64,000 nucleotides of DNA from positions 62,001 to 126,000 of the forward strand of contig NZ_JAXIVS010000017.1 in NCBI RefSeq assembly GCF_034259325.1, read 5' to 3'. The position numbers were made by a program, and so were the translations under genes. Positions 15,719-18,650 of the stretch are shown here, piece after piece (position 1 is the stretch's first letter; every line of letters starts with the position of its first letter). The DNA is from Hyalangium ruber (GTDB taxonomy: Bacteria > Myxococcota > Myxococcia > Myxococcales > Myxococcaceae). The notes beneath the pieces are model-generated. The model worked only from the letters and a program-made list of their open reading frames with translations. It did no database searches and was not told where the DNA came from.

Positions 15719-16399
15719 GTGTCGTATGGGCAGCTTCTGACGCAGATCCCCATCTTCGCGCACCTGCAGGGCGAGGATCTGGAGCACCTGTCCGCCCTGC
15801 TCCGCCCGCGTCGCTATGACAAGGGCGAGGTCATCTTCCACCAGGGAGACATTGGCACCGCCCTCTTCATCATCCGCAAGGGGCAGGTGGCCATCCGCCT
15901 CAGCTCGGATGATGGCAAGGAGGTCACCCTGACGATGCTCGACCGGGGCGACTTCTTCGGCGAGCTGGCGCTGCTGGACGGAGAGCCCCGCTCGACGGAC
16001 GCCGTCGCGCGCGAGGAGTCCGACCTGCTCAGCCTCCAGCGCGAGGACTTCCAGCGCTTCCTGGACGCGCGGCCCCAGGTGACCAAGGGCCTGCTGGCCG
16101 CCCTGAGCCATCTGGTCCGGCGCGTCACCCAGCTGGTGCATGACCGGACCTTCCTCGACGCTCGCACGCGCCTGGTCCGCGTCCTGCTCGAGCTGGCCGA
16201 GCACCAGGGCAAGCCCAGCGGCGAGGGCGTGGTCATCCCCCACAAGATTACCCAGTCCGAGCTGGCCAACCTCTGCGGCCTCACCCGCGAGAGCGCCAAC
16301 AAGTGGCTGCGCTTCTATGTCCGCGAGGGACTTCTCTCCTACGAAGGAGGGCAGATCACCCTCGTACAGCCCGAAAAGCTCGGGCGGGAAGCGGAGTAG
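15719..16399 (+). CDS. Crp/Fnr-family transcriptional regulator
   Basis: 226 aa from the GTG at 15719, with GGAGGT 6 bases upstream. An N-terminal cyclic-nucleotide-binding beta-roll carries the phosphate-binding cassette FFGELALLDGEPRS; Glu82 and the Arg91-Ser92 pair match the cAMP-contacting residues of E. coli CRP. A dimerisation helix follows, then a C-terminal winged helix (ITQSELANLCGLTRESANKWLRFY). Nearby, two perfect CRP-consensus sites lie at 17735-17773, a plausible target. Converges with the TPR/double-CNB gene. Confidence 0.9.
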   Translation: MSYGQLLTQIPIFAHLQGEDLEHLSALLRPRRYDKGEVIFHQGDIGTALFIIRKGQVAIRLSSDDGKEVTLTMLDRGDFFGELALLDGEPRSTDAVAREESDLLSLQREDFQRFLDARPQVTKGLLAALSHLVRRVTQLVHDRTFLDARTRLVRVLLELAEHQGKPSGEGVVIPHKITQSELANLCGLTRESANKWLRFYVREGLLSYEGGQITLVQPEKLGREAE

Positions 16400-16435: not shown

Positions 16436-17665
16436 TCAGATGCGGAGGTCCCCCTCGTCGAGCCAGAATCCACTGGTCATCTCCACGGTGCGCTGGAGGC
16501 GCTCCTGGCTCATGCGCGAGAGCGCCTCGCGCAGCCCGGGCTGGTGGAGGATGTGCCGCTCGCAGGCCTCCCGGTCCAGCCGCAACAGCGTGCAGCGCTC
16601 GGCGGTGGTGACGGTGGCGGTGGCGGTCACCCCCAGCATCAGGGAGATCTCCCCGAACACGTCCCCCTCGCGCAGCGGCCGGTAGTCACTCTCCCGGCCA
16701 TCCTCGTGCTCGTGCAGCACCCGGCAGGTGCCCCGCAGCAGCAGGTAGAGCGCCGAGGCCGACTGGCCCTGCATGGTGAGCGGCTTGCCCGCGGGCACGG
16801 AGCAGAGCTGGAAGTCGCGGGCCAGGGCCTCGCGCTGCAGGGGCGTGAGGGCGCGGAAGAGCGGGTTGCTGCGCAGCATGTTGATCAGCAGCCGCTCACG
16901 GTGGAAGGTCTGCAGCACCTGCCCCACCGAGGGGTGACGGGTGACGAGCTGCTCCACCCGCTCCCGCGGAAGCTCCAGCACCATCGTGCGCTCGCTCGCC
17001 CGGACGCTGGCCAGGCGAGGCCCCGCCGACAGCAGCGCCATCTCGCCGAACAGATCCCCTTCTCCCATGAAGGCCAGCGTGCGCTCCCCGCCCGTCTCCA
17101 ACTTGCGGACGACCTCCACGCTGCCCTCCACGATGGCGAACATGGAGCCCCCCAACTGCCCCTCCTGGATGATGGTCTCCTTCGGCTGGAAGACGCGCAG
17201 CTCCAGGCGCTCCATCACCGACAGCAGTTCCTCTCCGCTGAGCTGCGAGAAGATGGGGATGCGCGGCAGGGTCCCTCCGCTGATGTTGCCCGTGGCGGGA
17301 GCGTTCTCGACCGGCTTGGGAGCCGGGGCGAGCCGCGGCGACGACTCGAGCCGCTTGGCGTGGAGCTCCGCCAGCAGCCGCTGCGTCCGGTTATGGCGCG
17401 GCTCGATCTGGAGGATGACCTTGCAGAGGGCGATGGCGCGCAGCAGCCAGCCCTGCCGCGCCCACGCCTCGGCCAGCGCCTCGTAGGTGGCGATGGACTC
17501 CTTCTTGCGGCCCAGGCGCTGGAGCAACTCGGCCACCTTCTGCCGGCTGGAGAGGTCTTCCGGCGCCTCCTGGACGACCTTCTGGTACTCGGAGAGGGCC
17601 GACTCCAGCGCCCCCTTGGCGAAGAATTCGGCGGCCTTGTTCTTGTGCTCGCGCAGTGCGTCCAT
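16436..17665 (-). CDS. TPR protein with two cyclic-nucleotide-binding domains
   Basis: 409 aa. Residues 1 to about 110 are TPR-like helices (SALSEYQKVVQEAPEDL, SIATYEALAEAWARQG, LCKVILQIEPRH). Two CNB domains follow, at about 143-260 and 270-385. The first has FGEMALLSAGPRLASV with the phosphate-binding Arg; the second reads FGEISLMLGVTATATV and lacks that Arg, so it probably does not bind cAMP in the usual way. No kinase, channel or DNA-binding domain is present, so it may be an adaptor. The ATG at 17665 is preceded by GAGGAG. It faces two CRP-consensus sites 70-108 bases upstream. Confidence 0.85.
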   Translation of the reverse strand: MDALREHKNKAAEFFAKGALESALSEYQKVVQEAPEDLSSRQKVAELLQRLGRKKESIATYEALAEAWARQGWLLRAIALCKVILQIEPRHNRTQRLLAELHAKRLESSPRLAPAPKPVENAPATGNISGGTLPRIPIFSQLSGEELLSVMERLELRVFQPKETIIQEGQLGGSMFAIVEGSVEVVRKLETGGERTLAFMGEGDLFGEMALLSAGPRLASVRASERTMVLELPRERVEQLVTRHPSVGQVLQTFHRERLLINMLRSNPLFRALTPLQREALARDFQLCSVPAGKPLTMQGQSASALYLLLRGTCRVLHEHEDGRESDYRPLREGDVFGEISLMLGVTATATVTTAERCTLLRLDREACERHILHQPGLREALSRMSQERLQRTVEMTSGFWLDEGDLRI

Positions 17666-17734: not shown

Positions 17735-17773
17735 TGTGAGGGTCGTCACACCGCGGGTGTGAAGCCGTTCACA
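17735..17773. promoter_or_regulatory. Two tandem CRP-consensus sites
   Basis: TGTGAGGGTCGTCACA (17735-17750) and TGTGAAGCCGTTCACA (17758-17773) both match TGTGA-N6-TCACA exactly. Their centres are 23 bases apart, about two helical turns. They lie between the divergent TPR/double-CNB gene (start 17665) and the small basic protein gene (start 17862), and 1.3 kb from a Crp-family gene whose cAMP-contact residues look intact. Confidence 0.7.
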
Positions 17774-17861: not shown

Positions 17862-18218
17862 ATGCCTCGCGGAGACAAGAGCAAATACACGGACAAGCAG
17901 AAGCGGCGCGCCGAGCACATCGCCGACAGCTACATGGAGCACGGCAAGAGCGAGAAGGAGGCGAAACGCCGCGCCTGGGCCACGGTGAACGCCGAGTCGC
18001 ACGGGGGTGAGAAGCCCGGAGGCTCGGGGTACGGCAAACCGGAGACCCACCAGGCGTCGCGGCGCGGCGGCCAGCGCAGCATGGCCTCTCGGACGACGGC
18101 TCAGCGCTCGCGCGCGGCGAAGAAGGCCGCGGTGACACGCAAGCGCAAGTCCGTGCAGCGCAGCGTGGCGGCCAAACGGGCCGCTGCGAGCCGCAAGCGC
18201 AAGACGAGCAAACGTTAG
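17862..18218 (+). CDS. Small basic protein with histone H1-like tail
   Basis: 118 aa from the ATG at 17862, with GGGAGGG just upstream. The first 65 residues (PRGDKSKYTDKQKRRAEHI, then RRAWATVNAES and GGSGYGKPE) match a short conserved family often labelled plasmid stabilisation protein; the function is not established. The last 50 residues are Lys/Arg/Ala/Ser-rich (RAAKKAAVTRKRKSVQRSVA), like histone H1-type nucleoid proteins. It starts a run of three tiny basic genes that read away from the CRP-like sites. Confidence 0.75.
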   Translation: MPRGDKSKYTDKQKRRAEHIADSYMEHGKSEKEAKRRAWATVNAESHGGEKPGGSGYGKPETHQASRRGGQRSMASRTTAQRSRAAKKAAVTRKRKSVQRSVAAKRAAASRKRKTSKR

Positions 18219-18269
18219 CCCTTCCTTCGTTCCCGTTGTCCCACCACCCACGATCCAGGAGCCCTGATC

Positions 18270-18452
18270 ATGTCCAGCAAGCGAGAACTCATCGAGCCGA
18301 CCCCGGGTGACAAGCGGTACGTGCGCCGGGATGACCAGGGGCGCTTCAAGGAAGTGGACGACGTGGGCCGCTCGCTCTCGCAAGACCAGAAGCGCAAGGC
18401 CGAGCACGACGCCGGCAAGGGCCAGGGCGATCGCGGCGACCACAAGGAGTAG
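18270..18452 (+). CDS. Small charged protein, unknown function
   Basis: 60 aa. Highly charged: KRELIEPTPGDKRYVRRDD then GRFKEVDDVGRSLSQDQKR and a Gly/Asp/Lys tail. The core (ELIEP..GDKRYVRRD..G.F.E.DDVGRSLS) is a recurring short protein in soil bacteria, with no known activity. Likely cotranscribed with its two neighbours. Confidence 0.7.
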   Translation: MSSKRELIEPTPGDKRYVRRDDQGRFKEVDDVGRSLSQDQKRKAEHDAGKGQGDRGDHKE

Positions 18453-18458
18453 CGCCGC

Positions 18459-18650
18459 ATGGCCACCGCGAAACGGAGTACGGGCAAGCGCAAGAACAGC
18501 CTCGTGGAGAACATCAACCGCCGCAAGCGAGCGGGGACTTCCCGCTCGAAGCGCAAGTCCACGGTGTCGAAGAAGGCCTACCGGAACATGCAGCGCGGCT
18601 GGCCCAAGACGGCGCGAAAGAAGAGCACCCGCTCGCGAAAGTCGAGCTGA
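18459..18650 (+). CDS. Small Lys/Arg-rich protein, possibly nucleoid-associated
   Basis: 63 aa, more than a third Lys or Arg. Contains GKRKNSLVENINRRKRAGTS, then SKRKSTVSKKAYRNMQRGWP and a basic tail. The composition suggests nucleic-acid binding, though no fold is recognised. Begins 6 bases after the preceding stop, so the two are probably translated together. Confidence 0.7.
   Translation: MATAKRSTGKRKNSLVENINRRKRAGTSRSKRKSTVSKKAYRNMQRGWPKTARKKSTRSRKSS

Follow-up and report, generated by a model that had tools for sequence, protein, structure and literature searches.

The window analysed here is the whole 64-kb stretch of DNA, G000:C17:62001-126000, and comes from a genome of 10.77 Mb (G000) whose relatives resemble cystobacterial myxobacteria. 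In an intergenic region between divergent genes it carries two exact copies of TGTGA-N6-TCACA, the pattern of a CRP-type operator in a promoter region, and together these form a 39-bp tandem element with a centre-to-centre distance of 23 bp. An earlier reading of the letters (the sequence-only reading) had placed two exact matches at 17735-17773 with their centres 23 bases apart, and both the coordinates and the spacing were reproduced. Its description of the surroundings was also right, with a gene for a cyclic-nucleotide-binding (cNMP-binding) protein on one side and small basic open reading frames (ORFs) on the other. The features of the locus are the following:

17735..17750, no strand: Crp-type palindrome 1, TGTGAGGGTCGTCACA, exact TGTGA-N6-TCACA, the nearer of the two to the TPR-cNMP gene
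17758..17773, no strand: Crp-type palindrome 2, TGTGAAGCCGTTCACA, exact TGTGA-N6-TCACA
15719..16399, plus strand: Crp/Fnr-family regulator of 226 aa, with a GTG start and GGAGG upstream; the proposed binder, from Pfam, PDB similarity and orthologue co-occurrence
16436..17665, minus strand: TPR protein of 409 aa with two cyclic-nucleotide-binding domains (Pfam), here TPR-cNMP; start codon 69 bp from the double site; the most likely target
17862..18218, plus strand: small basic protein of 118 aa; divergent neighbour, 88 bp from the double site; a possible lineage-specific second target
18270..18452, plus strand: ORF for a small charged protein of 60 aa, downstream of the 118-aa gene; a passenger or part of a second-side operon
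18459..18650, plus strand: ORF for a small basic protein of 63 aa in the same cluster; a relative adjoins the 118-aa orthologue in G011

A scan for sigma-70-like promoters near the double site found none; such a scan is uninformative in a GC-rich genome.

Rarity, spacing and recurrence of the double site

Exact TGTGA-N6-TCACA palindromes were observed twice in the 64 kb, against 0.03 expected from dinucleotide shuffles, and two palindromes anywhere in the window occurred in 1 of 100 window shuffles. A genome-wide count, which the sequence-only reading had suggested as a check, showed that the motif is not common, with 6 exact sites in 10.77 Mb and 1 for the reversed control pattern. Since the window shuffles predict about 5 sites for the whole genome, against the 6 counted, a lone exact site says little. 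Among 6 random sites, the chance of two lying within 40 bp is about 1e-4 by simple arithmetic, and the exact 23-bp pair at 17735-17773 is the only one in the genome. The earlier claim that two such close exact matches are improbable by chance holds for the pair; single sites occur near chance frequency.

When up to 3 mismatches were allowed, the genome of the window gave 6 pairs at 23 bp and the reversed pattern gave 0. Four of the 6 exact palindromes fall in 23-bp pairs once as many as 2 mismatches are tolerated in the partner (C17 twice, C30:54339 and C8:185231). Exact single palindromes with no 23-bp partner lie at G000:C10:18780-18795 and at G000:C11:151070-151085; the latter precedes, by approximately 95 bp, a gene identified by eye as one for a predicted serine/threonine protein kinase. 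The exact pair was found in only 113 stretches across 257 Gb of other prokaryote genomes, from which records of close relatives were possibly excluded. These comparisons support the pair at its fixed 23-bp spacing, and not the single site, as the putative functional unit.

When the relaxed pattern was searched with the spacing left free, the distances peaked sharply at 23 bp. Among the matches listed, 36 of the 49 GTGA-N6-TCAC pairs are spaced by 23 bp (P about 1e-43 versus 31 possible spacings); the 49 are those listed for eight genomes after removal of a GTGAC-N4-GTCAC class, and many of them are orthologous. The safer count is that obtained by coarse clustering of look-alikes, again among the matches listed, where 9 of 19 groups are found at 23 bp (P about 3e-9). 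This spacing places successive half-sites at steps of 11, 12 and 11 bp, which is roughly one per helical turn. To our knowledge, a fixed tandem spacing over a whole regulon is unusual in the Crp family.

Two other tandem arrangements were encountered. The GTGAC-N4-GTCAC class, present in the same genomes, is often found as tandem sites 20 bp apart with CC..GG or CCACCTGG-like spacers (for example G061:C1:13360511-13360544 and G063:C1:5069854-5069887), and is probably the operator of another regulator. Genomes of the Stigmatella-like genus g15 (the labels g8, g12 and so on below also denote genera) contain exact TGTGA-N6-TCACA pairs and triples at 33-34 bp (L019 5710-5822, L020 5672-5784 and L021 5670-5719), which are a different spacing class; one such set neighbours a gene whose product was identified by eye as a topoisomerase/RecQ-like fusion protein.

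The 23-bp pair, with at most 2 mismatches, is present in 39 of the 96 genomes of the family, with up to 11 per genome; the genomes are related to one another, so that many of the pair counts are not independent. The reversed control pattern at the same threshold gave 0 in all 96. Genes around 58 pairs were called with our own codon-usage script, and no pair (0/58) lies inside a called gene: 19 have divergent genes on their two sides, 33 are flanked by genes running in one direction, and the neighbours of the other 6 converge. Of the start codons facing a pair, 53 of 66 are at a distance of 30-180 bp. In the profile of 54 distinct pairs only the half-sites are conserved, TGTGA and TCACA, together with inner adjoining positions that mildly favour A/T, while the spacer and the central bases vary freely. 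Half-sites that are kept while spacer and centre are free resemble a protein operator, unlike a transposed repeat.

A chance match, or a REP-like repeat with no regulatory role, is a highly improbable explanation of the pair. The near-chance number of single exact sites and the few pairs between convergent genes would fit such an explanation, but the fixed spacing, the variable spacer, the zero control counts, the intergenic placement and the tie to one regulator gene (see below) argue against it. Chance was rejected by the control patterns and the comparative counts, and a mobile repeat by the constancy of the half-sites while the spacer and central bases vary. The 6 of 58 pairs between convergent genes have no obvious promoter role and count against an operator. 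Where genes converge, strong tandem pairs lie between their 3' ends (L018 5747-5785, L017 5941-5979 and L345 1935-1973), at which a promoter would not be expected; such pairs possibly mark a small RNA or small gene missing from the annotation.

The Crp/Fnr-family regulator and its link to the double site

The assignment of the protein encoded at 15719-16399 to the Crp family, already made in the sequence-only reading, agrees with its Pfam matches to cNMP_binding (PF00027, 3e-28) and HTH_Crp_2 (PF13545, 1e-13), both over the cut-off. The protein has the domain order of the Crp/Fnr family, with an N-terminal cNMP beta-barrel and a C-terminal Crp-type helix-turn-helix, and its similarity to solved members of the family is full-length (3d0s, residues 5-225, E 3e-33). 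It missed the NCBIfam cut-off for the CRP equivalog, with 96 bits versus 266. The closest full-length solved relatives by sequence are CRP of Mycobacterium tuberculosis (Rv3676, PDB 3d0s) and actinobacterial CRP/GlxR structures, which come from a different phylum.

Comparison with E. coli CRP (reference sequence identical over its full length to PDB 1g6n) showed that, among the cAMP-contact positions, Glu72, Arg82 and Ser83 are kept, while Thr127 is replaced by Val and Ser128 by Thr. The position of Thr127 is Val in the regulator of the window and Thr in genus g26. In the recognition helix, the equivalents of Arg180 and Glu181 are kept and Arg185 is replaced by Lys. E. coli CRP reads TGTGA with its Arg180-Glu181 pair. 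Among the Crp-type regulators found in G000 by HTH_Crp_2, a search that a protein with a diverged helix-turn-helix could escape, this pair occurs in the window protein only. Because of the Lys at Arg185 and the Val at Thr127, the ligand and the fine DNA preference may differ from those of E. coli CRP. The two systems are thus alike in the palindrome, in the Arg180 and Glu181 equivalents and in the Gly-Glu and Arg-Ser phosphate-cassette residues of the cNMP domain; they are unlike in the three replacements and in that the sites here come in fixed 23-bp pairs, with few pairs per genome. M. tuberculosis CRP and actinobacterial CRP/GlxR are not known to have a fixed tandem operator.

Orthologues of the regulator (E < 1e-45) are present in 49 of the 96 genomes. 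Pair and regulator occur together in 36 genomes, the pair only in 3, the regulator only in 13 and neither in 44 (Fisher P 4e-12). The position of the pair relative to the regulator gene is a stronger argument for the proposed assignment than this co-occurrence. In genus g26, the pair is located 81-82 bp upstream of the regulator start in 16 of 16 genomes and is the sole pair of each genome. In g15 a pair lies upstream of the regulator gene in 7 of 7 genomes (up to 3 mismatches), and in g23 a decayed pair lies upstream in 7 of the 9 regulator orthologues tested (up to 5 mismatches, a level reached by 1 of 2000 shuffled upstream regions). In g8 (6/6) and g12 (4/4) the pair is found 246-354 bp downstream of one regulator copy, and in two g8 genomes this downstream pair precedes a histidine kinase gene (Pfam-checked in one); in G007 and G027 a pair precedes the second regulator copy. 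Co-occurrence and position of the orthologues both support the suggestion of the sequence-only reading that these CRP-type sites have the 15719 protein as candidate binder.

Some cases do not fit. The regulator's own promoter shows no recognisable pair in the window and in G003. Thirteen g23 genomes have the regulator and, with up to 2 mismatches allowed, no pair, though most of their regulator promoters examined contain degraded pairs; three genomes have a pair and no close regulator orthologue. These misfits, together with the pairs between convergent genes, may be due to drift, to small genes missing from the annotation or to other binders.

Another Crp-family regulator of the genome could be the binder, with the 15719 protein being a mere neighbour; the foremost candidate would be the orthologue of MrpC, which regulates development in Myxococcus xanthus. 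Indeed, a second Crp-type protein is present at C11:306594, and MrpC is a myxobacterial CRP-like dimer with a CRP-like palindrome as its recognition sequence and with several sites in the promoter of its own gene (PMC4320627). However, the MrpC consensus TGTY-N8-RAC (PMC4320627) is matched by neither window site, both having G at Y and C at R. Moreover, the C11:306594 protein has Arg-Ser at the TGTGA-reading positions, where the Arg is missing from the C1:520140 protein. Both in the genomes that have them and in where they lie, the pairs follow the orthologues of the window regulator, and most g23 genomes lack pairs. MrpC was rejected as the binder, with neither the site consensus nor the recognition helix fitting, and we consider binding by any such other regulator to be improbable.

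Genes beside the double site

The divergent TPR-cNMP gene is the neighbour at which the sites recur. Its orthologues in G007, G027, G083 and G029 have a pair upstream, and those in G014 and G085 have one exact palindrome left at the same place; overall, in several genera a pair or a single strong site precedes the orthologue by about 70-120 bp. In G086, one pair lies between a TPR-cNMP gene and the regulator gene and is common to both. Five distant TPR-cNMP paralogues (one in G000, three in G007 and one in G011) have no pair, which indicates that only the closer TPR-cNMP genes belong to the set; the paralogues were rejected as a general target class.

An alignment of eight TPR-cNMP proteins revealed the phosphate-cassette Pro-Arg in the first cNMP domain of 7 of the 8, and the phosphate-binding Arg to be missing from the second domain in 8 of 8. 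At most one of the two domains is therefore likely to bind ligand, and the second cNMP domain of the 16436-17665 protein is probably non-binding. The protein is comparable by description to CbpB of M. xanthus, named as a PKA regulatory-subunit homologue in the title of ref. 130 in PMC11139211, and likewise has two cNMP domains. It is unlike CbpB in its N-terminal TPR region and in its second cNMP domain without the phosphate-binding Arg.

The small basic and charged proteins of 17862-18650 have no Pfam or NCBIfam matches. The 118-aa basic protein has relatives in several myxobacteria, and its orthologues in G014 and G011 are 79-80% identical, have different neighbours and have no double site upstream. 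It is unlikely that the double site serves these plus-strand genes rather than the TPR-cNMP gene: its distance of 88 bp from the start of the first basic gene is a normal one, but the TPR-cNMP orthologues in several genera retain the sites and the 118-aa orthologues do not. The basic-protein genes were rejected as a conserved target and, from these comparisons, look like passengers. The sequence-only reading had placed the operators near genes on both sides; the TPR-cNMP side of this setting is conserved, while the orthologues of the basic cluster elsewhere are without sites. By this comparison, the likely conserved target is the TPR-cNMP gene on the divergent side and not the cluster of basic-protein genes.

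Pairs elsewhere adjoin genes for an ALO-type FAD oxidase (G000 and G083), ADYC-domain proteins (G000 and G063), S41 peptidases, SnoaL-like proteins and a cytochrome P450. The genes adjoining pairs point to no single obvious pathway.

Proposed control by the double site

The sites, the spacing rule, the intergenic placement, the conservation and the tie to the regulator gene are read directly from the DNA. We interpret the 39-bp element as a tandem operator of the Crp/Fnr protein of 15719-16399, occupied by two dimers and controlling the TPR-cNMP gene and possibly the basic genes, with a probability of roughly 0.8 on the evidence of sequence comparison. Each TGTGA-N6-TCACA palindrome would bind one dimer, and the two dimers would lie side by side at 23 bp, probably in a cooperative manner. 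A cyclic nucleotide would control the regulator. In the window, the double site would act on the TPR-cNMP gene at 16436-17665 and possibly on the basic-protein genes opposite. In each genome the double site appears to mark a small set of promoters, which in several genera includes that of the regulator itself. With the double site shared by these promoters, the regulator would control itself, the cNMP-binding partner and other genes that vary with the lineage.

A more far-reaching idea, which we put forward tentatively and hold to be rather doubtful, is that the rigid 23-bp paired sites are a regulon-wide code read by a dimer of dimers, in a loop where the TPR/dual-cNMP protein buffers or relays the same nucleotide signal.

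No report of such a regulon was found in the open-access literature searched. What is new is the rule of a fixed double site, together with its connection to the regulator and TPR-cNMP genes. Across many species, a short DNA rule, two TGTGA-N6-TCACA sites at 23 bp, singles out a regulator together with its probable targets and a partner protein that binds cNMP, and the double sites point to an undescribed gene-control network in myxobacteria.
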